A stretch of 37,458 bases of DNA from NCBI GenBank assembly GCA_903871465.1, contig CAIQHB010000047.1:1-37458 (forward strand), read 5' to 3'. Of this stretch, positions 3,401-36,787 are shown one piece after another. The position numbers were made by a program, and so were the translations under genes. Below the pieces are notes generated by a model, which had not been told where the DNA came from, searched no databases, and saw only the letters and a program-made list of their open reading frames with translations. Source of the stretch: an uncultured Methanosarcinales archaeon. GTDB lineage: Archaea > Halobacteriota > Methanosarcinia > Methanotrichales > Methanotrichaceae. Position 1 is the first letter of the stretch. The number at the start of each line of letters is the position of its first letter.

Positions 3401-3877
3401 TGTCTTTACATAGAAATATTCGTTTTCATCAAAATGTATCTCCTGGCCATCAAAATATTCGTTTATAAAATTTTGGTAGTTATGAAAACGCCCAAGAATA
3501 AAACTACGTGCTTTTTCATTTCCGAGAGATTCATTTGTTTTACTTCGATCTGTAAGAACGTTACTAGCACCTAATGAAAGAGACGTCAAACTATTTCGAT
3601 CTACGTCATGGTTACCTGGAACGATGTATAAGCGATCTTTTGGAACACGTGTCGTCTTCAGCAGATCATCAAAGAACTCCTTGGCCAACTTGTACTCTTC
3701 TGGTTTACTGCTAAATGATATGTCCCCTGTGACAACAATAAAATCAGGCTGTAAATCATTCTTTTGTATGCAATTATTTATATCTTTTAATAGTTCATCT
3801 AAAACAATCTTTTCATCATACACTTGCTGAGTATTAAGATGGATATCTGAGATATGAAGCCATGTGATCTTGCTCAT
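497..3877 (-). CDS. Metallophosphoesterase-STAND NTPase-TPR protein, putative defence/signalling NLR-like protein
   Basis: A 1126-residue three-part protein with no signal peptide, so cytoplasmic. Residues 1-300 form a calcineurin-like metallophosphoesterase with all metal-site blocks visible: D11xH13, G51D52, G88NHD91, H212H213 and G240HMH243. Residues 355-700 form a STAND/NB-ARC-like NTPase with FVGR at 357-360, Walker A GGMGKT at 385-390, Walker B LIILDGFE at 483-490, sensor-like ILITSRH and a degenerate HPLAL motif. The rest is helical TPR-type repeats. The architecture (effector, switch NTPase, ligand-sensing repeats) matches prokaryotic NLR-like proteins, where the repeats sense a trigger and the N-terminal enzyme acts, here plausibly on a nucleotide or nucleic acid. 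The start ATG has an AGAGGG-type ribosome site. It stands alone, AT-rich, beside an att-like scar. A defence role is inference. Confidence 0.85.
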   Translation of the reverse strand: MSKITWLHISDIHLNTQQVYDEKIVLDELLKDINNCIQKNDLQPDFIVVTGDISFSSKPEEYKLAKEFFDDLLKTTRVPKDRLYIVPGNHDVDRNSLTSLSLGASNVLTDRSKTNESLGNEKARSFILGRFHNYQNFINEYFDGQEIHFDENEYFYVKTINVAGSKIGILGLNSSWLSSSDDDCGKLQLGERQIRQALDDSTDVDFRVALLHHPFEWLRDFEHGHVDALLIDNCYFILSGHMHRQGILELTTPDSKAVIIPAGASYESRNYSNSYNFVKLNLEEQNGTIYFRIYSDNRGGFWTLDATSFRNVKDGTYPFQLPHRASESSYLVPATNDIKEISIEPYFGNPYPMKGKFVGRVKERKLLTKWLTGSREQIFSLIAIGGMGKTSLAWAWLHRDIMGRTLPGMLVDEDQDLKACRLPKEARLDGIFWWSFYERESFFNKFIDEALIYTCKKEEISKAHSVQERIKKLVDVLREKRFLIILDGFERELRSYSSLNAAYQEDITEGFHQSDFRRCTDYNAGTFLRWVASGNFRSRILITSRHLPFELDNVSSCETLELTGLDPEDAIRYVQSMNINGSKDEIGRICDNYAYHPLALQILVGMIIHDPVNPRDINAANYYDPIPDLMQREHHILELAYNQLEPKIKELLSRVAAFRSLMNYDAIKIINPFDDDNLLKEALRELIERNLITFDQEHGLYNLHPVVREYAYKRLIDKENTHSQLRNFYLSAANPTTVRSIDDLKDTIELYHHTVKAGLYDEAFSIYSEKLNTVLYYKLGASQIIIKLLKGLFPNGEDSPPRIIERNNQGSVLNSLALCYGRVGQLKHAESIFKIALPFAQNEKNKATALANLSEIQLGLGELTAAEESLHLKIDISKSLKDIHSESFARLLLSRILAYYGDFAKANKELEIANSFNIELGKKKAKRLGDTNIFLYRTFVNLIASKEKPKYISLSLRTARKALQTAKTEFREHEPVLIEVKLSLSLALLATYLSQSSKKMEDIEEAEKYLQEVTRSCHKTNMLEKEPDILIAWSILYMEKGDLHQAKFSAEEALFIAERCELRLKQAEIHNFLAQLAIKSNEFSEAKKQALIAYECARCDGPPHYYKAAFKEAESILKDIEKSFHN

Positions 3878-8608: not shown

Positions 8609-9355
8609 ATGAAAGAAATGAAATTGAGCGCGATCTATCAAGCAGACGGTAAAACGCTGGAATATGCAGAGCTGGGACTGAATCCGTATACCGGTTGTTC
8701 CCATAATTGCAGTTACTGCTACAACAAAAGGGAGGGTCGACCCCAAGGGCCATACGATCAACCAGCAAAGAAGGCAAGTATAAAGAATATCCAGCATGAT
8801 CTTTTGATGCTGGAACGTGATCATGATAGGAGACCGGTTTATATATCGTTCATGGGCGATCCCTACGATATAGGCAGAGCCAATAACAGCCATATACGCG
8901 ACATTCTTATGGCCTTCCGTGCCTATGACCATCCCTTTCAGATATTGACCAAAGGCGGCATGTTGGCAGCAAGAGACTTCGATCTCTACGGGCACGACGA
9001 TAGTTTTGGTGTGACTTTGACCTTCGATAACGATGCCGATTCAAGACGATTTGAACCTGGGGCTGCATTGCCGAAAGATCGTATCGCAGCACTGTTGGAG
9101 GCTCACAACCGCAATATCCATACATGGGTTTCATGCGAGCCGGTCCTATATCCCGCTCAGACACTGAAGCTTATCGAAATGACCCACAAGTTCGTGGATT
9201 TGTTTTGGGTCGGGAAGCTAACCCATTACCCTAAGATGGAGGAGAAAATAGACTGGCCGAAGTTCCGCAGCGAGGTTGAAGCGTTGCTTCAGAAATGCGG
9301 CAAGGAGAAAGGAACAGGCTACAAGCTGTTGCACCAGTTGATTGAAGCAAGGTGA
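8609..9355 (+). CDS. SPL-like radical SAM protein
   Basis: A 248-residue radical SAM enzyme of the COG1533 (spore photoproduct lyase-like) type. The cluster motif is GC30SHNC34SYC37Y, i.e. CxxxNCxYCY, preceded by LNPYTGC, the standard opening of this family. It ligates a 4Fe-4S cluster that cleaves SAM. The TIM-barrel strands can be followed: VYISFMGDPYD, FQILTKGG, FGVTLTF, HTWVSCEPV and DLFWVGKLTH. The length is normal for the compact archaeal members. Physiological substrates of this archaeal branch are not established; DNA photoproduct repair is only one possibility. A TATA-like stretch lies upstream. Confidence 0.85.
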   Translation: MKEMKLSAIYQADGKTLEYAELGLNPYTGCSHNCSYCYNKREGRPQGPYDQPAKKASIKNIQHDLLMLERDHDRRPVYISFMGDPYDIGRANNSHIRDILMAFRAYDHPFQILTKGGMLAARDFDLYGHDDSFGVTLTFDNDADSRRFEPGAALPKDRIAALLEAHNRNIHTWVSCEPVLYPAQTLKLIEMTHKFVDLFWVGKLTHYPKMEEKIDWPKFRSEVEALLQKCGKEKGTGYKLLHQLIEAR

Positions 9356-9420
9356 GAAGCATTTCGTTCCGCGATTGGCACGTTCGCGTTCGCTCCAAAA
9401 TTAAGTCTCATCCAAAAAAA

Positions 9421-9468
9421 GGGGCGCGGCTAGAGCCAAAAGCTCTTCTTTGCACTTCTAGCTCGCCT
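9421..9468. terminator. Inverted repeat between convergent genes
   Basis: GGCGCGGCTAGAG can pair with TTCTAGCTCGCC, with a nested AGAGC-CAAAA-GCTCT hairpin. It sits exactly between the stop of the radical SAM gene and the stop of the oligopeptidase gene and overlaps the latter's last codons. The position suggests a two-way terminator or RNA-end structure. Archaeal termination normally needs U-runs, which are weak here. Confidence 0.35.
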
Positions 9469-11404
9469 TCCCTTTGTCCAGATCTTCAAGCTGGTTTACT
9501 CTGAGCAACACAATGTCCATGGCGTCTTCGAAGAGCTTCCTGTTGATCTCCAGTCCAAAATACTTTTTCAGCTTCTCAGAAGGTGTCATGGTAGTGCCTG
9601 CCGATAGGTATTCGATGTAGTTCTTGTTGAATTCTACTGGGTCCTCCTTGTACATCTTGAAGAGTGACAGGGTTATGGCCTCAGACAGAGCATAGTTGAA
9701 AGTGTAATAGTTATCGGTGAAATAGATGTGACTCACGTAGGTCCACCTGGGCTCGCTCTTTGGGTAGTAAGCAACCTTATCGCTCTTGTACTCATCCTCC
9801 AGGCTCGTCCAAAGGACGTTCAGATCAGAACCGCTCACATTGCCCTTCTGGCTGACAAGCTGGTGGGCCTTGTGTTCGAACTCCGTGATCATGGTCTGGA
9901 AGGTGAATAGATTGGCATAACCGCTGATATGATCGGACAGAACCGCAATCGCGGTATCATTATCGTAGTTCTTGACAGCATAATCGAGGAAGAGTTCCTC
10001 ATCGAAAGTGGAAGGGATCTCCATCTCGTATGTGGTGCCTCCGCAATAGAGATAATCCACCGATTGCCCCATAAGGTAGAAGTCGATAGCATGGCCCATC
10101 TCATGGGCTATTGTGGATTTGTCATTGATCAGCCCGTTATAGTTCAGGAACACGAGTGCAGGACGCTTGAGTGCACATAGATCCTGGGCATATTCTATAG
10201 ACTGCTTTCCTTGATCCGGATTCGGATAAACATCCACGGAGCTGCTTGTGACGGTCTTTCTAAATGCCTGGTCGAATGCCGGGCCCATATAAGCAAGCGA
10301 AGCCTCGATCTCTTTTAGTGCCTCAATGTAGCTGGTTTTCTGGTCAGGGTTCTTCATGAGCTGAAGGAATAGGTCGTAGGGTGCCAGACGATCCACGCCC
10401 ATCCTGGCCCTTCGGAACTCATAATATCCGTCGAAATCTCCTTTTCGATCCTTAAATACCTGGTTCATGTCATCGATCTGCGATTCATTAAGGTAAGAGC
10501 CGAACATTGTGGCATTGTAGGCATCGGAAAAGTTAAGCTGCCGGGCGTACTCATCGTCCAGCTTTGATTTATTGGTATAGACGGCTCCCATCTCGTCCGA
10601 TTCATTGAAGAGATGGTGATACCGCTTGTCATAGCATTTCTTCCGGTCGTTTCTGTTCGTATTCGTCCTAAGAAGATCATAATAGGACGAGGAGTTGACG
10701 GCAAACGTCTCACCGTTGCCAAGAGTTATATTCCCGGCCTGGGTGACATTGTTGGTGATTAATTTTTCGGCGTTTGTATCCAGCTTCATGAGCTGGTTGG
10801 ACAGATCTGCCAGATATGCGGCCTGGGTTTCATTCTTGGGACGGTGATCCGCAAAGCGAATGTACCCGGCCTCAAGGTAGGGGCGGTATTTTTCCAGCTC
10901 CGGTTTCTCTCGGAAGAGTCTCTCCCACTCAGACCTAGTCAGCGACTTCAGCTTCACATCGGCAAAGGATGTGGCCTTGGTGTATTCTGTGGACAGATTC
11001 TGGACATCAGAGAGGAAGGCCTGGAAGAACTCATCATTGACGTTCAGGCTGTTTTCGGCATTGGCATACGCATATAGAACGCCCATCGATTTGGAGACGT
11101 TTTCATCACTCGTAATGTAATCAAGCAGCACATACCCTGTCAGGTTATCAAACTTGGGCCGGAAGGTCTGGTTCATCTGCTCGATGGATAGGTTCAGCCT
11201 CTGATATTCTCTCTTCGCAGCGTCTTTGTCCTTGTAGAGAAATGATAGGTCCCAGGAGGTGGTGACATTGCGGACATCAAGGCTCTGAGAAGTATCGTTT
11301 TCTGACGCATTCAAAGACGGAGCGGCATCTGCCGAAAAAGCAAGGATCGTTGCTGCAACGACAGACATGACGGCAAACACGCCGACAAGTGCGATGTAAT
11401 TCAT
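9458..11404 (-). CDS. Exported oligoendopeptidase F-like metallopeptidase (family M3)
   Basis: A zinc metallopeptidase of family M3B. Using the ATG at 11404 it has 648 residues with an N-terminal signal peptide (MNYIALVGVFAVMSVVAATI, cleaved near residue 28). The catalytic motif is H434EMGH438, followed by the third-ligand segment E462IPSTFDEEL. Most PepF proteins are cytoplasmic, so the signal peptide and the many N-x-S/T sequons show that this one is secreted or surface-attached, hydrolysing peptides outside the cell. The start is set by AAAGGGGAG lying just before 11404; that site sits inside the codons of a 7-residue longer version starting at 11425. Monocistronic, convergent with the radical SAM gene. 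Confidence 0.9.
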   Translation of the reverse strand: MNYIALVGVFAVMSVVAATILAFSADAAPSLNASENDTSQSLDVRNVTTSWDLSFLYKDKDAAKREYQRLNLSIEQMNQTFRPKFDNLTGYVLLDYITSDENVSKSMGVLYAYANAENSLNVNDEFFQAFLSDVQNLSTEYTKATSFADVKLKSLTRSEWERLFREKPELEKYRPYLEAGYIRFADHRPKNETQAAYLADLSNQLMKLDTNAEKLITNNVTQAGNITLGNGETFAVNSSSYYDLLRTNTNRNDRKKCYDKRYHHLFNESDEMGAVYTNKSKLDDEYARQLNFSDAYNATMFGSYLNESQIDDMNQVFKDRKGDFDGYYEFRRARMGVDRLAPYDLFLQLMKNPDQKTSYIEALKEIEASLAYMGPAFDQAFRKTVTSSSVDVYPNPDQGKQSIEYAQDLCALKRPALVFLNYNGLINDKSTIAHEMGHAIDFYLMGQSVDYLYCGGTTYEMEIPSTFDEELFLDYAVKNYDNDTAIAVLSDHISGYANLFTFQTMITEFEHKAHQLVSQKGNVSGSDLNVLWTSLEDEYKSDKVAYYPKSEPRWTYVSHIYFTDNYYTFNYALSEAITLSLFKMYKEDPVEFNKNYIEYLSAGTTMTPSEKLKKYFGLEINRKLFEDAMDIVLLRVNQLEDLDKGKAS

Positions 11405-24321: not shown

Positions 24322-24335
24322 AAGCTTTCCCAGAG

Positions 24336-24395
24336 GTTCTGTAAAGTCTGCGGTATCTCCCCTCTTTAAAAAATGCCTGTCAAAACGCGGTAGCT
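24336..24395 (+). repeat. Left 60-bp terminal inverted repeat of a 1080-bp element
   Basis: Begins GTTCTGTAAAGTCT and ends in GGTAGCT. It matches the reverse complement of 25356-25415 at 45 of 60 positions with no gaps. The identical parts are GTTCTGTAAAGTCT, GGTATCT, ATGCCTGTCAAAAC and GGTAGCT. The two halves of each repeat resemble each other (CTGTnAA...GGTA-CT), as in transposase binding sites. Confidence 0.85.
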
Positions 24396-24532
24396 ATAGG
24401 CGAGTATCAAAATCTAATTATTTTGAGGTGACAATGTCTGTTAATAGTGCAATGTGGCGTCAACGGATAATCACCAGCAATAAAAATAATTCAATTATTT
24501 GTATATTGCCGCCCATCTTACAAGGGATGTAG

Positions 24533-24667
24533 TTATTCCATAACTACATCAGGCCACACGAAGGACTGAAGGGAAAACGCCTTGAAGCATGTGGGATCGA
24601 GATCAAGGGTGATAACAAATGGATGACACTAATACAGAATGCGAGCCAAAAAGAGAAAATCAATTAG
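24533..24667 (+). pseudogene. C-terminal fragment of a DDE transposase (IS6-like)
   Basis: Immediately after an in-frame TAG (24530) the plus strand reads LFHNYIRPHEGLKGK, ACGIEIKGDNKWMTLIQNA and SQKEKIN, ending with a natural stop at 24665-24667. YNYIRPHxGLxGKTPAE followed by NKW is the recognisable tail of transposases common in methanogen genomes. Only this 44-residue tail survives. Its last 49 bases overlap, in another frame, the start of the membrane-protein gene and provide that gene's ribosome site. Confidence 0.75.
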
Positions 24668-25128
24668 AAGACTATTCGGGGAGCACTCATAGCTTAATGG
24701 TGGACGATGCAAGATCGGCCTTTCTCCAGCTCGAAAACTGGATGAACTCATTAGATCTGAAAGCTTCCATAATGATCGCTATAAATGCGATATCGATCTC
24801 GTCATTAGAACCAACGATGCATTTTAGCCAACAAATACCAATCTTAAAATTCTTAATTATTGTATTTCCATTCACATCTATAATATTAGCTTTATGCTGT
24901 TTGTGGCCGCGTTCCTGGACAAGACCAAATGGGATGAACACAATTGAATGTTATGCGGATAAGAAGTTTGATTATGCGGCCTCAAAATTAGCAAAAAACT
25001 ATGCAAATGGCGAGAAAAAATTGAAAGAAGCATATAACGACAAATTTGAATATCTCCAACTCAGCATTATCTGCACCGTGATCTCATTAGGATTGTCATT
25101 TATGCTTATTTTACATCAGATTTTTTAG
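24619..25128 (+). CDS. Three-helix membrane protein resembling Pycsar-type (DUF5706-like) effectors
   Basis: A 169-residue protein. A polar N-terminus (1-28) is followed by an amphipathic stretch VDDARSAFLQLENWMNSLDLKAS. Then come helices at about 49-66, 75-96 and 146-166, with a charged helical loop between the second and third. The LDLKASxxxAINAI pattern at the start of helix one resembles the D-x-KA motif of DUF5706/PycTM-like proteins, membrane effectors in Pycsar and related defence systems. No cyclase gene adjoins it. AAGGGTGAT five bases before the ATG is a good ribosome site; a later start at 24697 (MVDDARS) is possible. The first codons come from transposase DNA in another frame. The effector role is inference. 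Confidence 0.6.
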   Translation: MDDTNTECEPKRENQLEDYSGSTHSLMVDDARSAFLQLENWMNSLDLKASIMIAINAISISSLEPTMHFSQQIPILKFLIIVFPFTSIILALCCLWPRSWTRPNGMNTIECYADKKFDYAASKLAKNYANGEKKLKEAYNDKFEYLQLSIICTVISLGLSFMLILHQIF

Positions 25129-25469
25129 GCCTAAAACTTTCTTTGAAAGGGTCCCAAGCTTGTTCATCTGGAGATACATCTTTAGCTGTATATCGCTTAG
25201 GCTTATCGGTTTGTTTATCGTCTTCGCACATCTCATCATCCATCCTACGAAGAGTTTAGAGACTCACCGATATTTATTACTATCTCCATTAACTATAACA
25301 GCCTTAAAAAATCGAAGTTTTCAAAAGAAGTTAAATGCATTGATTTAGGGAAATTAGCTACCTTGTTTTGACAGGCATTCCAAGATACTGTTAGATACCT
25401 AAGACTTTACAGAACTTCCCATCGTTAGGATTTTATAGTGGATTCTGCTATCTGATGAACGGTGAGGAG
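25129..25469. other. Right end of the element and upstream region of the transporter operon
   Basis: A 62-codon hydrophobic frame at 25160-25348 starts only with TTG, has no ribosome site and is not supported. The right inverted repeat (25356-25415) ends here, leaving just 55 bases to the start of the substrate-binding-protein gene. The operon promoter must therefore lie inside or next to the repeat. Confidence 0.35.
25356..25415 (-). repeat. Right 60-bp terminal inverted repeat
   Basis: The reverse complement begins GTTCTGTAAAGTCT, continues GGTATCT at the same spacing as the left end, then ATGCCTGTCAAAAC and GGTAGCT. Identical spacing over 60 bases rules out chance. Confidence 0.85.
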
Positions 25470-26594
25470 ATGAAAAGGCAAGCTCTTATCGGCGGTATCA
25501 TCCTAGTTTTGGTCATTCTAGGCGGAATTGGCTATAATCTGATCACTCCAACAAATGCTGTAGTCGTAAATATCGGCCATATTGGACCACTGACAGGAGA
25601 TGCAGCTATGTATGGGGAAATGGAGAAACAGGGTATCGATCTAGCTGTGGCAGAGACAGAGGCCAACGGTGGGATCAAGGGCGATCAACTAAAGGTCATC
25701 CACGAGGACGATCAGGCTAACCCTACATCGGCAACAAATGCTATCAATAAATTAATTACTGTCGATAAAGTTGTCGCTGTAATTGGGGAATTACAAAGTA
25801 CGACCACGTTGGCAATTGCACCTATTGCGGAAAGGAACAAGGTCGTCTTAATTTCCCATGCAGCTAACTCAAACAAGCTCTCAGGTATAGGTGAATATAT
25901 ATTCCGAATTTATCCCACCAATACTGAGGAAGGTCAAAAACTTGTGGAACTTGCTTCTTCGCTAAATTTAACAAATGGTGCTACTCTCTACGTCAACAAC
26001 GATTTTGGCACAGACCTAGAAAGTGCTGTCGATAAAGCTTTTACTGAAAATGGAGGCAGCATAGCAATTTCAGAAGGATACAATCCTGACGCAACCGATT
26101 TCAGAACCCAATTGACAAAAATCCAGGCAAAGAATCCTAGCGTGATCTTTCTTCTCGGATACCCCAAAGATATGGCCATGATATTGAGACAAGCGAAAGA
26201 GATTGGATTAAAGTCTCAGTTCCTTGCAGACGACACCTTCAACTTACCCCAAATCATTGACTGGAGCGGAAATGCCACAGAAGGTGTTATTTTCGTTGTT
26301 CCGTCAAATGGAGATCCCAGCCGGTGGCAGGATTTCAATCAAAAAATCAAGGGCAAATACGGAGAAAACGCCACTATCATAACTGCCATGGCTTATGATG
26401 CAACAAAACTATTGGTAGCTGCTATGGAGAACAGCGGCACAACATCAGATGCGATAAAGACCGGACTCACTCAGATCAAGGATTATCCTGGTGTTACGGG
26501 AAATATCACTTTTGATAAAAACCACGATGTGGTAACCCGATTATTCGACACCCAGATTGTGAAAGGCGGGAAGTTTGTGGAGTATGCGGCGTAG
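25470..26594 (+). CDS. LIV-type ABC transporter substrate-binding protein (Peripla_BP_6)
   Basis: About 374 residues, starting at the ATG at 25470 just after GGTGAGG (the upstream ATG at 25455 has no ribosome site). An N-terminal hydrophobic segment (ALIGGIILVLVILGGIGYNLI) acts as signal or membrane anchor; no lipobox Cys is present. The type I binding fold is clear: VNIGHIGPLTGDAAMYG, AVAETEANGGIKGDQLKVIHEDDQANPTSATNAINKLI, AVIGELQSTTTLAIAPIAE and GYPKDMAMILRQAKEIGL. Family ligands are branched-chain or other amino acids, amides and aromatic acids. It opens the operon, and the matching permeases and ATPases follow only after three conflict-type genes. Confidence 0.9.
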   Translation: MKRQALIGGIILVLVILGGIGYNLITPTNAVVVNIGHIGPLTGDAAMYGEMEKQGIDLAVAETEANGGIKGDQLKVIHEDDQANPTSATNAINKLITVDKVVAVIGELQSTTTLAIAPIAERNKVVLISHAANSNKLSGIGEYIFRIYPTNTEEGQKLVELASSLNLTNGATLYVNNDFGTDLESAVDKAFTENGGSIAISEGYNPDATDFRTQLTKIQAKNPSVIFLLGYPKDMAMILRQAKEIGLKSQFLADDTFNLPQIIDWSGNATEGVIFVVPSNGDPSRWQDFNQKIKGKYGENATIITAMAYDATKLLVAAMENSGTTSDAIKTGLTQIKDYPGVTGNITFDKNHDVVTRLFDTQIVKGGKFVEYAA

Positions 26595-26726
26595 AGAGGC
26601 ACCACTATTTTTTAATAAAATAAGAAATTTTGTGCCAATCAAAGAAAGGAAACCAACAATGCTCAGGTGAGCCGCCAGGTGTGCATACGTCACGGGTTTC
26701 AAGTGTAGAATTATGGAGTACATCAT

Positions 26727-27749
26727 ATGGCCACTTTAGTCTGGGATAACAACCTAATCAATTTGAGGGATCTCCTAGCTGATTTGTATTGGGATAGGTC
26801 AGAATCGCGCCGGATCGTGCAACAAGCCAGACTCAACGCTGGTTTAATCGCCTTCAACGATTCTCCAATCAACAATTGGCACATCATTTTGGATCGTGCC
26901 AGACAGGACGCTGCATGCGTAGATGCCATCATTGATGTTGCCATCGGCGAGCAGCCGCGGTCGAAACAGGAGTTGTTGGCCAGGGCTAAAGAGCACATGC
27001 TGCTCAACCTTCGCGGGGTTGATATTAAAGATGTGAATTGGAAACACCCGTTGGATTCTGTTCAACTCGAACAAATCACTGGCAAACAAAGCACATTGCT
27101 TGAAATCTCATTTTTGGAGCAGGGGCTGCAACGAGCTAAAGCCGTTGCGCGGATAGATTTGGGTGAGTGCGGCAGCGGGTCTGGTTTTCTGATCGGCGAT
27201 GACTTGCTGCTGACAAACAATCATGTGCTGGAAGATAAGACACAGGCGCGGGCAGCTAAGGTGCAGTTCAATTACCAGAAAACATTGAGAGGGCTGAATG
27301 CCTCCTACGATGAGTATGATCTCGACCCAGACGGCCTGTTCAAGACCTCGAAGGATAACGATTGGACTGTGGTAAGAGTCAAGCCCAAGCAAAGTAAGTT
27401 GGCGGGCGAAAAGTGGGGGTCGCTAAGACTTAGTGAGCAGCATCCCAAAGCAAATGATTTTACTATCATTATCCAGCACCCCGGCGGTGGGCCAAAGCAA
27501 ATTGCGCTATACCATAATGTTATAACGTTCATTGACTCAGCCAATCGCTTTGTGCAATACCTAACCGATACGTTACCTGGATCATCCGGCTCGCCGGTGT
27601 TCGATACGGATTGGAATGTAATTGCATTACACCATAGCGGTGGATGGCTGCGAGAGCAGGGCAAAGATCCTGGGAGAGAGTTTTACCGTAACGAAGGTAT
27701 TCACATAAACGCAGTTATTTTGGGATTGAAGGATGCAGGTGTAACCTAA
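26727..27749 (+). CDS. EAD1-fused V8/trypsin-like serine protease
   Basis: A 340-residue cytoplasmic protein (no signal peptide). Residues 10-90 are an effector-associated domain 1 (EAD1): LRDLLADLYWDRSESRRIV, then GLIAFNDSPINNWHIIL, ending QELLARAKEH. Residues 140-335 form a V8/HtrA-like protease with a complete triad: H166 in LLTNNHVLED, D212 in DNDWTVVRV and S287 in LPGSSGSPVF. A substrate-pocket loop reads ALHHSGG. EADs are known to recruit effectors to partner proteins carrying the same EAD class in bacterial and archaeal conflict systems; the next gene carries such a domain. GGAG lies 8 bases before the ATG. Its codon use is more GC-rich than that of the two genes after it. Confidence 0.9.
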   Translation: MATLVWDNNLINLRDLLADLYWDRSESRRIVQQARLNAGLIAFNDSPINNWHIILDRARQDAACVDAIIDVAIGEQPRSKQELLARAKEHMLLNLRGVDIKDVNWKHPLDSVQLEQITGKQSTLLEISFLEQGLQRAKAVARIDLGECGSGSGFLIGDDLLLTNNHVLEDKTQARAAKVQFNYQKTLRGLNASYDEYDLDPDGLFKTSKDNDWTVVRVKPKQSKLAGEKWGSLRLSEQHPKANDFTIIIQHPGGGPKQIALYHNVITFIDSANRFVQYLTDTLPGSSGSPVFDTDWNVIALHHSGGWLREQGKDPGREFYRNEGIHINAVILGLKDAGVT

Positions 27750-27750
27750 T

Positions 27751-28845
27751 ATGGCGAACATGAAATGGTCCGATTACCACCAGGAACTAGAGGATGTTTT
27801 TTCCGAGTTGTATTTAGAGACACCAAGCATCCGGCGCATCATGAACCAAGCTGGTTTAGACCCCAGATTTATTAATTTTAACGGTTCTTCAGTGAATATA
27901 TGGGATCAAATCATCGAGATAGCAGATCAGGAAATGTTAATAAGTCTTATAATAAATGCGATGAAAGATCATCCCAGAGATAAACGATTGTGGAAATTGC
28001 ATAAAGAACATACAGTCTCGAAGGAAAAAGAACCGAATGATGAGTTGCGTGAACTCATTTTAGTAGAAATTAAGTTTGTCATCGCTGCAATGAAGTGGAA
28101 AGATGCTTCTGGAATCATAAAAGAAGACGGCCTTGAGAGGGGTGCTATATGGAATGGAGTGAATTCTAATTTGTATTTCCAGGAGATAAGTAAAGAGCTG
28201 AAAAAAATTGGCATTAATAATTTGGTTAATAGATATGGCTCAACTAGATGCGACTGGAAGCCATTATTGGATTCCGGAAAGGATTCTAAAATGGATTCTG
28301 CAGATAATATAGAATGTATAATACGCGATGTATGCAAAAAAATAGAAGATATAAGTGAGCGCAGAGGCGGTAAAAGGACAAGAATCAAGCCCTGTTTTGA
28401 ATCTAAATTCCTTGGTGATGATGAGGATAAAAGAAAGGGAGAAAAGGCTGAACTAAGGAATAATAACTCGGAATACGTGCTGATAATAGATGCCATTTCG
28501 ATCTTTGATCCGATATTAGAGGAACGTCTGAATTTTTCGGGATTAATTCATAATCCCAAGGTAGCTGTAATTATCGTTTACCCAATTAATTCAATGTCAT
28601 TTGAGATTAATAGATTGATTGAAAAAATGATATCTGAAAGATTAAATGATGCGCACATTAGATTTTATGAAGACCTTGATAAGCTATGCGACATAAGTAT
28701 CGGAAATCAGGCCACTTTTAACCGTAGGCTTGATTGTATCCTAACTCAAAAGGTCGAAAATGCCAGCGTCCTTAGAGCGAATTCATTGAGTAGAGAGTTA
28801 CAATCAAGAAAATTAGGAGGAACGACAGGGTTTTTGCCCACATGA
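27751..28845 (+). CDS. EAD1 adaptor-like protein with unknown C-terminal domains
   Basis: A 364-residue soluble protein starting one base after the protease stop. Residues 8-90 are a second EAD1 (LEDVFSELYLETPSIRRIMNQAGL, INFNGSSVNIWDQII, DHPRDKRLWKLHKEH), clearly alignable with that of the protease (LY, RRI, QA, FN-S, N-W, I, A-Q, K-L, KEH). A helical middle (95-180) follows. From about residue 240 there is an alpha/beta region with strands YVLIIDAISIFDP and KVAVIIVYPINS, a possible Rossmann-like domain without visible catalytic residues. It probably docks the protease through EAD1-EAD1 pairing and links it to the ATPase encoded next (inference). Confidence 0.75.
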   Translation: MANMKWSDYHQELEDVFSELYLETPSIRRIMNQAGLDPRFINFNGSSVNIWDQIIEIADQEMLISLIINAMKDHPRDKRLWKLHKEHTVSKEKEPNDELRELILVEIKFVIAAMKWKDASGIIKEDGLERGAIWNGVNSNLYFQEISKELKKIGINNLVNRYGSTRCDWKPLLDSGKDSKMDSADNIECIIRDVCKKIEDISERRGGKRTRIKPCFESKFLGDDEDKRKGEKAELRNNNSEYVLIIDAISIFDPILEERLNFSGLIHNPKVAVIIVYPINSMSFEINRLIEKMISERLNDAHIRFYEDLDKLCDISIGNQATFNRRLDCILTQKVENASVLRANSLSRELQSRKLGGTTGFLPT

Positions 28846-28866
28846 TGAGGATTCGGGAGAGATACG

Positions 28867-30777
28867 ATGATTTGCACATTTTATTCCTATAAAGGCGGTG
28901 TAGGCCGGTCTATGGCGCTCGCAAATATAGCTTGGCTGCTCTACAATAAAGGACATAAAGTTATGATGATCGATTGGGACTTGGAAGCACCAGGTCTTGA
29001 GAGATTCTTTTATAAAAAAAGTGAAACTATAGAAAGGATTAAAAAGAAACCTGGGCTTATGGATATGCTTTTGGATTATAAATTTAATATTTCTAAAGAA
29101 CTGCATATAAACCGGAAAAAAGATTTGCCTTATTTGAAGCCAAAGAAGATAGCGTTTAAAATATTTAGTGATCCCGGGGGCGCGGAACTCCGATTGCTTA
29201 CTGCGGGAAGAAGATCGAAAGAGTATTATTCTAAATATGTAAACTCCGTTAATAGCTTCGATTGGATAGACTTTTATAAAAATTGGGATGGAGAGTTATA
29301 CTTCGAGTGGCTTAGGGAGCAGCTTGAGTTGAGTATGGATATCGTTCTAATAGATAGCAGAACGGGCGTGAATGAGATAGGTGGAGTCTCCGTCAGCCAG
29401 CTCGCGGATGTTGTAGTAATGTTCTGTGCACCTAATGAGCAAAATTTAGAAGGCACCAAAAAATTAGCTAACAAGTTTAGCAAGTCTGGATTCCTAAATC
29501 TACGTCAAAAACAAAATAGAAAAGTGAATCTAATAATTGTACCCTCAAGGGTGGAAAATGCGGAGATTGACCAATTAACTGAGTTTCAGAGTGATTTTGC
29601 AGAAAGCTTCTCTAGATTTGTTCCTTATGAACTAAAAATAGGGAACGTACCTGCAGGGCTTTTTGACCGAATTTCTGTAGATAAGATCAAACCGGAGATT
29701 GCACCTTTTTGGAAGCTAATGATACCCTATACACCATATTATTCATTTAAAGAACGTTTGGCAGTAAGCGCAACAGAAATAGCCTCCAAGCCCCTAACTG
29801 ATGCCTATACTATTCTCGCTAAAGATATATTGAAATTTTATCCGCGCAAAGAAGAATTAGAAAGCATATCTGATATTAGTTGGTTAGAAAGCATATCTGA
29901 TATTAGTTGGGGGAATATCAAATCGAAATCTTCCACTATTAATGAGTATAGAAGTACTGCCGAAGATCTGATTAAAAACGCAGAGGATTCAATTTATCTA
30001 ACATGTATCTATCCCCCGGAATTTTGGATTATAGGAAACTATCTATTTAATTGGGACAAACTTGGAACTAAGTATGACTATGGAGAACGACTTAAAAACC
30101 ATTTTAGATATTTAATTCCCTTTGACACATTTGATGATAATGAATTACAGGATATTGAGTTTAAAAAGGAAAATAAATATAAAATTAATGCCGAAATATC
30201 AAACTGTCAGATTTTTTCTATTGAACTCAAAGAAAATTTTGCTTTGCTAAACTCTAAATATCTTAGGAAAGGATTGGAAGACGTGAAATTAATTACGAGA
30301 AGAAAAAGCGATGACGACCCGCTATATATTTACTCAGGAAATTACAAATCTAATGATTTAGACTCTTACAAAAAATTTTGCGATTTGATCAGTGACAAAA
30401 CGGGCCTAGAGAGAATAAGAATTTTTATAACAGATATTTATGGCGATGATCTAGACTGGAAAAGAGATGCAACAATCGTAAACCAATTTATTAGAGATTA
30501 TAATAAAAATATAAAACTTCGTATTTGTTCGGCAAGAGATCCTAGTGTCGCTCAGTTTTATCTTGGTGATATGATGATAATTGATAAAAAAATTGTTTTA
30601 ATGTATGATCCGAATAAAGCAGAACCAAATGGGGAGAGGAGGGGACGCATACAATTAATTACTGGAGATATTGTCAAAAGATACCTTGAAATATTCCAAA
30701 TTGGAAATGAGTTAAAAGAACCAAAGGATTATTGGGGGGAGATGCTAGATAGTGATAACGCAGGCCACAATGATTAG
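28867..30777 (+). CDS. KGGVGR-type SIMIBI (MinD/ParA-like) ATPase with extra C-terminal domain
   Basis: A 636-residue protein. The deviant Walker A reads Y-K9GGVGR14S, keeping the first signature Lys of MinD/ParA but with Arg in place of the usual P-loop Lys. It is followed by MIDWDLEAPGL (A' motif) and the Walker B region VLID163SRTG. This is the KGGVGR-style SIMIBI group seen in prokaryotic conflict operons. Residues 355-625 form a second domain (EYRSTAEDLIKNAEDSIYLT..., FIRDYNKNIKLRIC..., MMIIDKKIVLMYD..., LITGDIVKRYLEIF) laid out like a PLD-superfamily half but without the HKD histidine, so perhaps a binding domain. A 27-base in-frame tandem duplication lies in the linker. GGGAGAG precedes the ATG. 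Its end overlaps livH. Confidence 0.85.
   Translation: MICTFYSYKGGVGRSMALANIAWLLYNKGHKVMMIDWDLEAPGLERFFYKKSETIERIKKKPGLMDMLLDYKFNISKELHINRKKDLPYLKPKKIAFKIFSDPGGAELRLLTAGRRSKEYYSKYVNSVNSFDWIDFYKNWDGELYFEWLREQLELSMDIVLIDSRTGVNEIGGVSVSQLADVVVMFCAPNEQNLEGTKKLANKFSKSGFLNLRQKQNRKVNLIIVPSRVENAEIDQLTEFQSDFAESFSRFVPYELKIGNVPAGLFDRISVDKIKPEIAPFWKLMIPYTPYYSFKERLAVSATEIASKPLTDAYTILAKDILKFYPRKEELESISDISWLESISDISWGNIKSKSSTINEYRSTAEDLIKNAEDSIYLTCIYPPEFWIIGNYLFNWDKLGTKYDYGERLKNHFRYLIPFDTFDDNELQDIEFKKENKYKINAEISNCQIFSIELKENFALLNSKYLRKGLEDVKLITRRKSDDDPLYIYSGNYKSNDLDSYKKFCDLISDKTGLERIRIFITDIYGDDLDWKRDATIVNQFIRDYNKNIKLRICSARDPSVAQFYLGDMMIIDKKIVLMYDPNKAEPNGERRGRIQLITGDIVKRYLEIFQIGNELKEPKDYWGEMLDSDNAGHND
29857..29910 (+). 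repeat. 27-bp perfect in-frame tandem duplication
   Basis: Bases 29857-29883 and 29884-29910 are identical and encode LESISDISW twice, in the linker between the ATPase domain and the C-terminal domain. The lack of any mismatch indicates a recent event or selection for copy number. Confidence 0.95.
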
Positions 30778-31648
30778 CCAGCTATTTATTAATAGTCTCA
30801 TCGCGGGCAGTATTTATTCACTTATGGCTATAGGCTTTGCGATCATCTATAAAACTGTAAAATTTTTTCATTTTGCTCATGGAATTGTCTACGCTACAGG
30901 CGCCTATATCACTTATACATTTTTCCAAATCCATAGATTTGATTTCATATCTTCCTTTATTCTGGCGGTTGTATCATCCGGTTTACTCGGATTGCTAATC
31001 TATCAATTTGTCTATCGCACTCTTCAGGTAAAGAAAGCCCCGAATCTAATTTATCTTTTGGCCTCGTTTGGCGTTTTTATTTTCATCGAGAATATCATCG
31101 CTTTGATTTATGGGAATCAAATACTCTTTATGCGGCCTCTAGCGGAGGCATCCAGTTATTCTTTTTTTGGAGCGTCGATAACATTGACGCAGATTGTCAT
31201 CATTGTCGTCTCAATAGCGACCCTTTTGGCCCTATGGATTTTTATCGAGAAGACAAAACTCGGATTGGCCTTGAAAGCTGTGGCAGACGATCCTCAAGCT
31301 GCACAACTGGTCGGGATTGACTCTGTTCGGTTGACACAGGTAGCCTTTTTCGTAGGTTCTGTACTTGCAGGTGTTGCTGGAGTTTTGATATCACTGGAAA
31401 CGAACCTTAGCCCAACCATGGGGTTTCCCGCGATTTTTAAAGGCATTATCGCATCTATTATCGGAGGGATGGGGAGCATTCCTGGCGCAGTCGTCGGAGG
31501 GTTTTTCTTGGGGTTTGTTGAGAATTTTGGTATCTGGTATATTCCCTCAATATGGCAGGATTTTATTTCATTTACCTTCCTTATTGTATTTCTCGTCCTG
31601 AGGCCTTCAGGCTTTTTTGGTGTAATCCCAGAAAAGGAGCTGATATGA
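30752..31648 (+). CDS. livH: LIV-type ABC transporter permease LivH
   Basis: About 298 residues with eight or so transmembrane helices. The sequence follows LivH: FINSLIAGSIYSLMAIGFAIIYKTVKFFHFAHG at the N-terminus, KTKLGLALKAVADDPQAAQLVGID (the EAA-like cytoplasmic loop that docks the ATPase), and a Gly-rich GIIASIIGGMGSIPGAVVGG. The GTG at 30752 sits 9 bases after GGGGGGAG, giving a 26-base overlap with the ATPase gene; a start at the ATG at 30770 (ATGATTAG, 8-base overlap) also fits the family. Either way translation is coupled to the SIMIBI ATPase. It forms the channel with LivM. Confidence 0.9.
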   Translation: MITQATMISQLFINSLIAGSIYSLMAIGFAIIYKTVKFFHFAHGIVYATGAYITYTFFQIHRFDFISSFILAVVSSGLLGLLIYQFVYRTLQVKKAPNLIYLLASFGVFIFIENIIALIYGNQILFMRPLAEASSYSFFGASITLTQIVIIVVSIATLLALWIFIEKTKLGLALKAVADDPQAAQLVGIDSVRLTQVAFFVGSVLAGVAGVLISLETNLSPTMGFPAIFKGIIASIIGGMGSIPGAVVGGFFLGFVENFGIWYIPSIWQDFISFTFLIVFLVLRPSGFFGVIPEKELI

Positions 31649-31649
31649 G

Positions 31650-32519
31650 ATGGAATACGAACTGCATCTTTTCATCATAACTGGAATATTTGTGATTCTC
31701 GCCCTGAGCCTGAATCTGGTACTTGGATACCTGGGCCAACCTGCATTAGGTCACGCCGCATTTTTTGCTATCGGTGCTTATACTTCCAGTTTATTGGCAT
31801 TGAACGCAGGTATTTCACCCTGGATTGGCTTGTTTATCGGTGCATCATTTGCAGCAATTTCTGGTATGATAATAGGTCATTTGACTTTTCATTTAAAGGA
31901 AGACTATTTTGGACTGGCTACTTTTGGGTTTGGCCTTATTATATATAGCGGCATAAATAATTTGACTGATGTGACCCGTGGTCCCATGGGTCTCCCAGGA
32001 ATACCACAATTCATCGCATTTACTGATTTGTACAACTCTCTTATTTTTTATTGTATCCTTATTCTACTATTTGTTTTAATTACTATTTTTTTAACAAGAA
32101 GGATAATATATTCACCCTTTGGAAGGGTTGTACAATCAATAAGAGATGATGAACTGGCTGCAGAAGCTCTTGGAAAAGATACACGACAGGTCAAGATCAT
32201 GATTTTTACGATTGGCGCTTTTTTTGCCGGGATCGCAGGAAGTCTATATGCCCATTATATCACCTTCATAGATCCATCTAGTTTTAATGTTATGGAATCT
32301 ATTCTCGTTGTGCTTATGGTGATTCTCGGTGGCATGGGAACAATTGGAGGGCCTATCATTGGGGCAGCTGTACTGATCCTTTTCCCAGAAATGTTACGAT
32401 TTATCGGTATTCCAGATGCTGTCGCCGCTCCATTAAGGCAGATGATTTACGGCTTTTTATTGGTAATTCTTATCATCAAGAGACCGCAGGGATTGGTCGG
32501 CAAGTACAAATTATGGTAG
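31650..32519 (+). CDS. livM: LIV-type ABC transporter permease LivM
   Basis: A 289-residue membrane protein with the LivM signature LSLNLVLGYLGQPALGHAAFFAIGAYTSSLL, the ATPase-docking loop SPFGRVVQSIRDDELAAEALGKDTRQVKIM, and LVVLMVILGGMGTIGGPIIGAAV. One base separates the LivH stop from its ATG, and GGAGCTGAT is the ribosome site. The length is shorter than in long bacterial LivM proteins but common in archaea. It pairs with LivH as the membrane channel. Confidence 0.9.
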   Translation: MEYELHLFIITGIFVILALSLNLVLGYLGQPALGHAAFFAIGAYTSSLLALNAGISPWIGLFIGASFAAISGMIIGHLTFHLKEDYFGLATFGFGLIIYSGINNLTDVTRGPMGLPGIPQFIAFTDLYNSLIFYCILILLFVLITIFLTRRIIYSPFGRVVQSIRDDELAAEALGKDTRQVKIMIFTIGAFFAGIAGSLYAHYITFIDPSSFNVMESILVVLMVILGGMGTIGGPIIGAAVLILFPEMLRFIGIPDAVAAPLRQMIYGFLLVILIIKRPQGLVGKYKLW

Positions 32520-32526
32520 GTTGATC

Positions 32527-33297
32527 ATGCCATTTCTGATTCTGGAAAATCTGTCAAAGCATTTTGATGGGAACCTCGTATTGGACAATGTCTCTCTTCA
32601 GCTGAAGGAAAGAGAACTTGTCGCAATGATCGGTCCAAATGGTTCAGGCAAGACAACCTTGTTCAATGCGATATCAGGGTTTTTAAAGCCGGATCAGGGT
32701 AAAATTATCTTCAAAGGAATTGAAATTAATAATCTTCCTCCAAATAAAATAGCAAGGCTAGGGATTACTAGATCATTCCAGAGAATTCGTCTCTTTCACC
32801 AGTTGTCCGTCCTCGATAACATGTTACTTGCAGCAAGATACAATGAAGGTGAAAAACTATTCAGCGCATTATTTCGAACTCGATTGATCCATAAAGAAGA
32901 AGAAGAAAATATCAAAAAGAGTTTGGAATATTTATCTTTTGTTGGATTATTTGATAAAAAAGATTCTTTAGGTGAGAATCTATCCTTTGGACAACGAAAG
33001 CTACTTGAATTGGCAATGGCATTTGCTTCTGATGCAGACCTAATTTTGCTTGATGAACCGACATCTGGCGTCTTTCCTGAAACGAAGGCCAAAATAATTC
33101 AAAACATTCAAAAATTGAACGAAGATGGGAAAACAATTCTTTTCATTGAACATGACATGGAACTTGTCATGCGATTAGCGAAGCGAATAATTGTTTTGGA
33201 TCATGGAAAATTGATCGCTGATGGTCATCCAGATGAAATCGTCAACAATGAACATGTCTTAGACGCATATTTTGGCAAGAGGAAATCCTATGCTTGA
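32527..33297 (+). CDS. livG: LIV-type ABC transporter ATPase LivG
   Basis: A 256-residue ABC ATPase. Walker A is IGPNGSGKTTL, the signature is LSFGQRKLLELAMA (the usual LSGGQ is relaxed to LSFGQ, as often in LivG), Walker B is LILLDEPTSGV, and the switch His is in LFIEHDME. The start is the ATG at 32527 rather than the TTG at 32521; AGGTTG precedes it. It powers transport with LivF. Confidence 0.92.
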   Translation: MPFLILENLSKHFDGNLVLDNVSLQLKERELVAMIGPNGSGKTTLFNAISGFLKPDQGKIIFKGIEINNLPPNKIARLGITRSFQRIRLFHQLSVLDNMLLAARYNEGEKLFSALFRTRLIHKEEEENIKKSLEYLSFVGLFDKKDSLGENLSFGQRKLLELAMAFASDADLILLDEPTSGVFPETKAKIIQNIQKLNEDGKTILFIEHDMELVMRLAKRIIVLDHGKLIADGHPDEIVNNEHVLDAYFGKRKSYA

Positions 33298-33982
33298 AGC
33301 AAAAAATCTTACAGCGTTCTACGGACCACTGAAAGCGTTGGATAGTGTTTCATTCAAAATATCTGATCACGAAATTATTGCATTCATCGGACCTAATGGC
33401 TCGGGCAAATCAACAGCCGTCAAAACAATATTTGGGTTTGTGGATAAGATTGATGGCGAGATTATCTTCAATGACCGAAATATCAAAGGTATTCCTCCCA
33501 ACGAATTGGTAAATCAAGGGATCTCATTAGTTCCGGATGGAAAACGAATATTTTCCTCCCTAACTGTATTAGATAATATTGTTTTAGGCGGATACCTCCT
33601 CAAAAAAGGAAGAAGTGAACAGATCGATAAAATACTTGATTTGTTTCCGCAAATGAGGGAAAAATTACATCAGAGAGCGGGAACTCTGAGTGGCGGAGAA
33701 CAACAGATGCTTGCAATCGGAAAAGCTCTGATGCTAAATCCAGCATTGTTAATCTTGGATGAACCGTCATTAGGACTATCACCAAATTATATAAACATAA
33801 TATATGAAAAAATAAAAGAGATCAACAATCAAGGCACCGCAGTATTAATAATTGAACAAAATATAGAGAAAGCCTTGGAGTGTGCTCACCGAGCATATCT
33901 GTTTAGATTAGGAAAAATCATTTTTGAAGGGCCATCCAAGAGTTTGCTTGATCCTGAAATAAGGAAATCGCTATTAAGATAA
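33290..33982 (+). CDS. livF: LIV-type ABC transporter ATPase LivF
   Basis: A 230-residue ABC ATPase. Walker A is IGPNGSGKSTAVK, the signature LSGGEQQMLAIGKALM, Walker B LLILDEPSLGLSP and the switch region VLIIEQNIEKALE. The start is the ATG at 33290 (MLEAKNLTAFYG, standard LivF opening) with AAGAGGA seven bases upstream, overlapping the livG stop by 8 bases. It is the last gene of the operon. The opposite-strand Cap15-like gene follows with only 70 bases between the stops. Confidence 0.92.
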   Translation: MLEAKNLTAFYGPLKALDSVSFKISDHEIIAFIGPNGSGKSTAVKTIFGFVDKIDGEIIFNDRNIKGIPPNELVNQGISLVPDGKRIFSSLTVLDNIVLGGYLLKKGRSEQIDKILDLFPQMREKLHQRAGTLSGGEQQMLAIGKALMLNPALLILDEPSLGLSPNYINIIYEKIKEINNQGTAVLIIEQNIEKALECAHRAYLFRLGKIIFEGPSKSLLDPEIRKSLLR

Positions 33983-34051: not shown

Positions 34052-34705
34052 TTATTTTCGTTTATAATTAACTGTTCCTCTATATAATGGCTTTTGCCCC
34101 TGGGCACAATGAGAAAATGTTCCCGAGAGCTCCAAAGGACGTTTCTTCTCATCTCGTTTGATTACTTTCGTTTCTTCAAGTCCCTTTATTTGTTGAGTTG
34201 GAAGGCGATCATTGATACAACTTGGATAGTACGCTTCGCTCAAGCCATTAGCGTAGTATGCGTAACTTAAACCTTCTTTATCTAGATCAATCTCGAAGGC
34301 TATCGATCCCCAATTTGAAGCATAGCTTCCTCCTTTCACAGGAGATAGCTTGCTGGATAAGCAATCTTGTTCTACATTGAGCTCACAAACCAGCGGTTTT
34401 GGAGGTGGACCATCCCCTTCAACAATTTCGTAGATACTTGTTCCAACCCATATTCCAGAAAAATCATATTCAGGTTTTTGCATTTTCCATAGTTTATAAC
34501 GAATAAAATTTTCACAAATTATAAAGAGCGCAGAGAAAACAGCTGTTGACGTAATAACACGAATAGCCCACATGATAATCGAGTTTGATGCATATTCCTG
34601 AGTTAAAATTGGGATAACTTGGGACGATATGGTGCCACTAAGCAAGGCTATAATGACAGCTAATTTTTTGATGCAATTTACATAATAATCTTTAAGATTA
34701 TCCAT
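34052..34705 (-). CDS. Cap15-like 2TM beta-barrel protein, orphan CBASS-type effector
   Basis: A 217-residue protein with two N-terminal transmembrane helices (about 13-35 and 43-66). A beta-rich C-terminal domain begins PEYDFSGIWVGTSIYE. The layout and the FSGxWxG entry into the barrel match the SMODS-associated 2TM-beta family (Cap15), a CBASS effector that disrupts membranes when its barrel binds a cyclic nucleotide. Strands continue with KPLVCELNVEQ, GSIAFEIDLDKEGLSYAYYANG, ELSGTFSHCAQG and YRGTVNYKRK. No cyclase gene is visible in the window, so it may work with a distant cyclase or another signal. Convergent with the transporter/protease operon. Confidence 0.65.
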   Translation of the reverse strand: MDNLKDYYVNCIKKLAVIIALLSGTISSQVIPILTQEYASNSIIMWAIRVITSTAVFSALFIICENFIRYKLWKMQKPEYDFSGIWVGTSIYEIVEGDGPPPKPLVCELNVEQDCLSSKLSPVKGGSYASNWGSIAFEIDLDKEGLSYAYYANGLSEAYYPSCINDRLPTQQIKGLEETKVIKRDEKKRPLELSGTFSHCAQGQKPLYRGTVNYKRK

Positions 34706-35463: not shown

Positions 35464-35632
35464 ATTAATAAAATATTAAATATGACGTATGCCCAATACT
35501 TTTCAGAATAGTGATCATTTATCTTGGTACAAGCGTTTAGCGCACACCGGGAGGGAGAATTACACATACAAATGATCTGCATAATCTACATATATCTGGC
35601 CTTATAATGTGCAATCTCGGAAGGGCGAGTTG

Positions 35633-36787
35633 ATGGAAGAGAAATTTCCCGGTTATCATAAATTCAAAGATGAGGATTTCTCAAAATTGTGGAGAGAGTG
35701 CATTTTCGTTTTTGATACGAATGTGCTATTAAATCTATATCGCTACAAGATAAGCACCCGCGATGAGCTATTAAAAATTTTTAATGAAATAAAAGATAGA
35801 ATATGGATACCCCATCAGGTCGCTTTGGAGTACCATGATGAGCGTTTGAATGTAATAAAATCCCTTATGATCGTGTACGATAGAATAGACAAAATGGAAA
35901 AGGAAAATTGCGATAAAATAAAAAAGGAGTTAGATAATTATAAAGAGCGGCATCCTATTATCGATGTGGATACAATAACTTCGGTATTGGATAGTAACTA
36001 TACATCAATATCTCAAGAATTGAAAAGGGAAAAAGCCACTCATCCGGATTGGAACTCTAGCGATGATATTAGAAGTACAATTTATTCCCTATTTGATGGA
36101 AAGATAGGCGAGCCTTACTCTCAAAAATCACTGGAAGAAATCTATAGACGGGGAGAAACAAGATATTCTCTTAAGATACCCCCAGGATATGAAGATAGAA
36201 ACCAAAAACCGAATTTCCCTTACAAGGAATATGGAGATCTGGTGCTTTGGTGCCAATTAATAGATGAGTCAAAACGTATCAATAAATCAGTGATTTTAAT
36301 TACAGATGATACGAAGAAAGATTGGTTTAGTGAGCGCAGTATCCCTCGTCCAGAGTTGATTCAGGAGTTTTTCTCAGAAACGCAAAACATATTATATATA
36401 TATTCGCCAAAGGATTTCATGAAATGGTCACAACAATACCTGAAGATCACGGTTGCCGAAGATGCTATCCGGGAAATCGAAGAGGTTAAGAGTGGAGATG
36501 AAAAATACTTTGGAGATAGGGCAAGCAAATCATATTCCTTTACTTGGTCAGAAGTCGACCGTCTCCCCCAATCCGAATATGATAAAATGGAAAAATTGCG
36601 TAAAATCTTCGCAAAAAAACTAGATGAGAATCCAGAGATCACTGAGGAAGAAGCCAATTTATTGCTTTTAGAAATTGACAGTAATACCGTGAATAATCAC
36701 AGCATAAAGATCAGATTTTCAGATGAAAAGGACTATTTAGGATGGGATCTTTATCAGAAATTCCCCTTCATTCTACATAAATATTAA
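35633..36787 (+). CDS. PIN-like (DUF4935/PIN_8-type) nuclease
   Basis: A 384-residue protein starting at the ATG at 35633, with AAGGGCGAG shortly upstream; a GTG at 35609 would put that site inside the gene. The PIN-like active-site acids are present: D28 in FVFDTNVLLNLYRY, E66 in QVALEYHDER, D202 in EYGDLVLW and D225/D226 in LITDDTKKDWF. A helical insertion (about 70-180) separates the first two from the rest, as in the DUF4935 group. A C-terminal region of about 140 residues lacks known motifs. PIN nucleases cut RNA; large ones of this type occur in defence islands. AT-rich, single gene. Confidence 0.8.
   Translation: MEEKFPGYHKFKDEDFSKLWRECIFVFDTNVLLNLYRYKISTRDELLKIFNEIKDRIWIPHQVALEYHDERLNVIKSLMIVYDRIDKMEKENCDKIKKELDNYKERHPIIDVDTITSVLDSNYTSISQELKREKATHPDWNSSDDIRSTIYSLFDGKIGEPYSQKSLEEIYRRGETRYSLKIPPGYEDRNQKPNFPYKEYGDLVLWCQLIDESKRINKSVILITDDTKKDWFSERSIPRPELIQEFFSETQNILYIYSPKDFMKWSQQYLKITVAEDAIREIEEVKSGDEKYFGDRASKSYSFTWSEVDRLPQSEYDKMEKLRKIFAKKLDENPEITEEEANLLLLEIDSNTVNNHSIKIRFSDEKDYLGWDLYQKFPFILHKY

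Follow-up and report, generated by a model that had tools for sequence, protein, structure and literature searches.

Homotypic pairing of effector-associated domains (EADs) and of death-like domains has been proposed as a means of recruiting effectors, among others for adjacent bDLD1-trypsin genes (PMC7159879, PMC8195603). As in the EAD and bacterial death-like domain systems (Kaur et al. 2020, 2021; PMC7159879, PMC8195603), the module described here has a small α-helical adaptor of which a protease and a neighboring core protein each carry a copy. However, the core of those systems is MoxR-vWA, GTPase-GAP1, NucA-trypsin or iSTAND, whereas here it is formed by a FxsC_C-like protein and a KGGVGR ATPase; the motif name KGGVGR appears in neither of the two papers. 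A protease is likewise recruited in the proenzyme pairs of Hachiman, AVAST and canu, into several unrelated immune systems (PMC12799240), although the operon examined here contains no metallo-β-lactamase nuclease. The ATPase is a full member of NF047398, the KGGVGR-motif variant AAA ATPases (158.9 bits against a cut-off of 90), and matches the PADLOC candidate PDC-M28B. Most KGGVGR genes that we examined have, however, other upstream partners (HEPN-like, TIR-like and HTH); the HEPN-like kind also includes two further KGGVGR genes of Methanothrix, which lack the FxsC_C-like domain.

The window, that is, the whole stretch of 37,458 nucleotides that was analyzed, comes from an uncultured archaeon (GCA_903871465.1, contig CAIQHB010000047.1) of Methanothrix, a genus of methane producers whose members are filamentous. 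The genus assignment follows from a genome of the same genus, in which a second contig of 18,019 bp agrees at every one of 6,000 compared bases with the plasmid of Methanothrix soehngenii GP6. The window contains the following three genes.

26727..27749, + strand: EAD1-trypsin protease (340 aa; Pfam Trypsin_2, 80.8 bits, and EAD1, 20.9 bits).
27751..28845, + strand: EAD1 and FxsC_C-like protein, P0001 (364 aa), an intact open reading frame.
28867..30777, + strand: KGGVGR-variant SIMIBI ATPase (636 aa; NF047398, 158.9 bits; PADLOC PDC-M28B, E=8e-30).

These genes form a tight operon, with a gap of 1 bp between the trypsin stop codon and the start of P0001 and of 21 bp between the stop codon of P0001 and the KGGVGR gene; the strand opposite P0001 is interrupted by many stops. 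In the protease, EAD1 occupies approximately residues 1-90 and Trypsin_2 residues 151-301, and the catalytic motifs can be read in the sequence as His (TNNHVL), Asp (DNDWTVV) and Ser (GSSGSP). P0001 begins with its own EAD1 copy.

27760..28008, + strand: EAD1 adaptor domain, residues 4-86 of P0001 (PF19955, 34.4 bits, E=3.2e-8).

This copy scores over the curated Pfam cut-off (24.2 bits) and covers profile positions 1-88 of 90, and that of the trypsin lies slightly below the same cut-off. An earlier note, made from the letters of this DNA, had claimed that the two copies align along their whole length. This was borne out: a search within the genome gave an end-to-end match (36%, E=4e-7), and the Smith-Waterman score of the pair was 115 as compared with 26.6±5.1 for shuffled sequences, none of 500 shuffles reaching it. 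Searches of the genome found only these two EAD1 copies. A family search suggested that EAD1 is rare in the phylum, which is weak evidence of absence, as the same search missed the copy of P0001.

We compared four loci, namely the window (P0001), a locus of another Methanothrix (L098, encoding P0009), a Pseudanabaena plasmid (L046, P0002) and a contig from a viral collection (L071, P0006). L098 was obtained by a genus-wide search; L071, a bacterial prophage-type contig, was obtained by scanning viral contigs for the ATPase. Taken as a single sequence, residues 95-364 of P0001 gave no confident match in Pfam, NCBIfam, PADLOC or PDB, and a PDB profile search with the domain returned nothing credible. 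Among 72,556 plasmids, the best tblastn match of the C-terminal half of P0001 was P0002, a hypothetical protein, at an E-value of 0.4 that is insignificant alone, but the P0002 gene immediately precedes the gene whose product is, within the plasmid collection, most closely related to the window ATPase (E=2e-63). P0002 is related to P0006 (E=1e-20), and a profile of these two, built without P0001, recovered P0001 in HMMER with E=1.7e-8. The same profile matched P0001 in hhalign with a probability of 94%, as compared with at most 0.33% for 30 shuffled controls, and the comparison of pair against pair of sequences reached 97.9% (E=3.2e-13 over 199 columns). P0001 and P0009 matched in BLASTP over residues 106-336 only. 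Scans of genome contigs with a single sequence, either P0001 or the KGGVGR protein, gave no matches, and profile scans of viral contigs with two alignments gave no new cases. The domain and its conserved motifs are located as follows.

28066..28758, + strand: FxsC_C-like domain, residues 106-336 (BLASTP to P0009, E=9e-26; hhalign 94% alone and 97.9% as a pair).
28234..28263, + strand: motif YGSTRCDWKP, residues 162-171 (Y162, W169 and P171 invariant in four sequences).
28477..28512, + strand: motif VLIIDAISIFDP, residues 243-254 (I246, D247 and S250 invariant in four sequences).

The pattern conserved in the four-sequence alignment is thus Y162-(x)6-W169-x-P171 and I246-D247-x-x-S250. The Rossmann-like strands that the earlier note had quoted, YVLIIDAI (residues 242-249) and VAVIIVYP (residues 271-278), are present, but the domain spans about 230 residues rather than the 130 given there. 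Its description as unassigned is superseded by a recurrent family, and no match to a known unrelated enzyme was found for the C-terminus. The AlphaFold models, with pLDDT values of 42.6 for the full protein and 36.8 for the domain, are too low in confidence to judge the fold or the pairing of the EAD1 domains, as there are too few relatives, and a fold search on the domain model returned noise.

The nearest named family to the C-terminal domain appears to be FxsC. TIGR04276 (FxsC_Cterm) was the best of 18,950 NCBIfam models for P0006 (E=0.0019, 18.0 bits), the second best for P0002 (E=0.12, 12.2 bits) and the best for a three-sequence consensus including P0001 (E=5.8e-4, 19.7 bits), and the matches always span about positions 19-176 of 196. 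The reversed consensus, used as a control, did not match this model; neither did the consensus of P0002 and P0006 alone, nor P0001 alone. Since P0002, P0006 and the three-sequence consensus all score below the curated cut-off of 55 bits, we use the name FxsC_C-like and claim no membership. FxsC has a TIR-like domain at its other end, where P0001 has EAD1 instead, and Pfam recognized no TIR-like domain in P0001. Among the listed open reading frames, no gene of the FxSxx-COOH type, a system marked by a precursor peptide and a radical SAM protein, was recognized beside the module; shorter peptides fall under the length limit of that list. The FxsC_Cterm model gave only scattered sub-threshold matches in 197 genomes of the phylum, and we therefore claim no archaeal FxsC; TIR and STAND queries found no FxsC sequence in plasmids. 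In one archaeal locus (L043), the gene immediately before a KGGVGR gene encodes a stand-alone TIR-like protein with a match to the N-terminal model of FxsC (E=1.2e-7); this is consistent with a functional tie of FxsC parts to KGGVGR proteins. In another archaeal locus (L042), a TIR-like gene also directly precedes a KGGVGR gene, the product of which ends, as read by eye, in a formylglycine-generating-enzyme-like region.

In all four loci, the FxsC_C-like gene lies immediately upstream of the KGGVGR gene, and the ATPase itself consists of two halves.

28867..29823, + strand: constant N-terminal SIMIBI half, residues 1-319 (47% identity to the second Methanothrix protein, 40% to that of Pseudanabaena).
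29824..30774, + strand: variable C-terminal half, residues 320-636, a candidate sensor or effector (unrelated to the C-terminus of the L098 protein).

Residues 320-636 gave no Pfam match and no confident PDB or plasmid relative. Elsewhere the C-termini of the ATPases carry TPR and WD40 repeats (L098) or STAND NTPase domains (L046 and L071). The two Methanothrix FxsC_C-like proteins align only C-terminally and their ATPases only N-terminally. As read from these alignments, the constant core is the FxsC_C-like domain with the KGGVGR N-domain, and the adaptor, the protease and the ATPase C-terminus are the variable parts. The P-loop lysine of active SIMIBI ATPases (KGGxGK[ST]) is absent from the window protein, which reads KGGVGRS, and the arginine is invariant in a nine-row alignment. 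MinD/ParA-like domains of related systems have been predicted to be inactive (PMC7159879). A role of the ATPase as a switch may for both reasons be wrong, and nucleotide hydrolysis is not to be assumed because the P-loop lysine is replaced by arginine. An exact 27-bp tandem duplication (29857-29910, encoding LESISDISW twice) lies at the junction of the constant and variable halves. A Streptomyces plasmid (NZ_CP130719.1; L068, 6090-9504) carries a cassette of a small protein, a KGGVGR protein and a protein of ~500 aa between the BREX genes pglW and pglX.

A protease is encoded upstream in all four loci, a trypsin in the window and L098 and a caspase in L046 and L071, so that an operon with a protease, an adaptor and FxsC_C-like protein, a KGGVGR protein and matched adaptors recurs in 4/4 loci, a small sample. 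In L098, both adaptors are bDLD1 domains (43.5 and 26.0 bits, both over the Pfam cut-off of 25), and the pair scores 88 as compared with 26.3±4.5 for shuffles. A glycine-rich β-motif forms the pair in L046 (58 versus 29.4±4.6), where EAD10 is also present in the ATPase, and the L071 pair is a 'QPGW' motif, PGxFxQPGWxVxxVI (56 versus 24.2±4.6); these are the weaker two, being short and partly of low complexity. For each of these three pairs, 0/500 shuffles reached the observed score. Adaptor pairs taken across loci scored at chance, except for the window EAD1 against the adaptor of P0009 (44 versus 25.5±4.7). EAD1 and bDLD1 may thus be distantly related, and the apparent swap of adaptors could partly be divergence. 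The adaptor type differs between loci and is the same, within each of the four, on the protease and the FxsC_C-like protein; within Methanothrix, the core of one species has EAD1 and that of another has bDLD1. Between the bDLD1-trypsin and bDLD1-FxsC_C genes of L098 there is a further gene (9102-10208, − strand; 368 aa) with no Pfam match. It was considered as a homologue of P0005, the gene upstream of the Pseudanabaena caspase, but the two proved unrelated.

These data suggest that P0001 is probably the adaptor subunit of a three-gene, EAD-type protease-recruitment system with KGGVGR-driven clustering, likely with a role in antiviral defense or regulated cell death. According to this proposal, EAD1 of P0001 would bind EAD1 of the adjoining trypsin-like protease, and the FxsC_C-like domain may dock, on the single ground that the two genes adjoin, on the SIMIBI half at the N-terminus of the KGGVGR ATPase. 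The ATPase would act as a nucleotide-dependent assembly switch, with its variable C-terminal half sensing a trigger or serving as a scaffold. Once activated, it would cluster the adaptor, whereby the proteases would be brought together and activated and would presumably cleave their targets. The domain content, the order of protease, adaptor-FxsC_C and KGGVGR genes, and the adaptors matched within and swapped between loci are read from the sequence; from the EAD literature we infer the antiviral role, the physical binding and the direction of signaling. The earlier note had proposed an adaptor between protease and ATPase, and the comparison supports this, with a KGGVGR gene adjoining in four loci and an adaptor that matches the one on the protease while its type changes. 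We regard the adaptor idea as well supported because the same adaptor is found on the protease and the FxsC_C-like protein of each locus and differs between loci.

An unlikely alternative is that P0001 is itself the effector, a proenzyme brought to the protease by EAD1 and cleaved and activated in its C-terminal domain, as in trypsin-gated nucleases. In Hachiman, AVAST and canu, by analogy, a proenzyme is switched on by its partner protease, a trypsin or a caspase (PMC12799240), and the invariance of D247, S250, W169 and Y162 in the four-sequence alignment could be taken in the same sense. However, searches of Pfam, NCBIfam, PADLOC and PDB matched no enzyme family, nuclease or hydrolase included. 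From locus to locus the domain stays with KGGVGR as a conserved partner, unlike the effectors of such systems, which typically vary. In FxsC, the closest family that has a name, a TIR-like domain already occupies the other end. Somewhat less likely still, the FxsC_C-like domain might be the sensor, such as a Rossmann-like domain that binds a nucleotide or ligand, and might directly set the activating signal, which KGGVGR would execute downstream. The alternating strands and helices predicted with low confidence would be compatible with such a role, as would the conserved Asp that follows a hydrophobic strand (IID, residues 245-247). The variable part expected of a sensor is, however, the KGGVGR C-terminus, which has no assignment in the window, TPR/WD40 repeats in L098 and STAND domains in L046 and L071. 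For the same reason, no support was obtained for the earlier note's suggestion that P0001 may set the activating signal because no other protein connects EAD1 with something new, the domain being the constant part; the C-terminal half of the ATPase is the likelier sensor because it changes completely between loci.

The module sits between livK (25455-26594) and livHMGF. That it serves no defense and regulates or processes the liv branched-chain amino-acid transporter of the surrounding cluster, as livK directly upstream and the 8-bp overlap of the livH ATG (30770) with the KGGVGR stop codon might suggest, seems very improbable, and direct liv regulation was rejected as the main reading since livH is nearly absent from the genus (1/20 relatives, 30% identity), while the other three loci have no liv genes near the module and the window has other defense-type genes. 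GC content is mostly 32-48% across the liv cluster and module (25455-33982), as compared with 54% at 22-23 kb; as the liv cluster is rare in the genus and GC is low, both may have been acquired. Downstream lie genes for a 2TM-effector-like protein (34052-34705, − strand; PADLOC PDLC00705, E=9.7e-5) and a PIN_8 protein (35609-36787, + strand; E=3e-63), which lend the region a defense-island flavor, as judged from these matches. At the other end of the window, a calcineurin-like phosphoesterase/NB-ARC/TPR protein (497-3877, − strand) matches anti-phage models in its N-terminal part (NF053861 DS8, E=1.6e-45; PADLOC PDC-S60, E=2.6e-45), below the full-length cut-off. A PycTM-like gene for a two-TM protein (24619-25128) has imperfect inverted repeats on either side (24333-24396 and 25355-25418; 88-92% over pieces of 25-26 bp), and the whole may be a small mobile element.

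Returning to P0001 as the adaptor subunit, the module is best read, from its domains, as an archaeal case of the known EAD-type conflict systems with a new core. The arrangement is suggestive of an apoptosis-like switch, with the protease under the control of the ATPase by way of the adaptor. We also put forward, with slightly less than even confidence, the broader view that the FxsC_C-like domain and the KGGVGR SIMIBI half are the undescribed constant core of an archaeal and bacterial conflict system that recruits trypsins or caspases via interchangeable adaptors, either death-fold domains or short β-motifs, in an apoptosome-like manner, with a degenerate MinD/ParA-type NTPase replacing the STAND or MoxR switch. 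Neither KGGVGR nor FxsC is named in this context in the literature searched, and 'undescribed' is provisional because most subscription papers fall outside that search. The 'EAD principle' predicts matched adaptors that change together on the protease and the core, and a clean natural experiment for it is provided by four loci that share one core and differ in their adaptor pairs. For the C-terminal domain of FxsC, itself unstudied, the data suggest a role in docking on KGGVGR proteins. If the proposed binding is true, archaea would carry a protease-recruiting death-adaptor device with an unusual P-loop protein as its switch, and the KGGVGR family, so far a defense candidate, would gain a testable partner and output.
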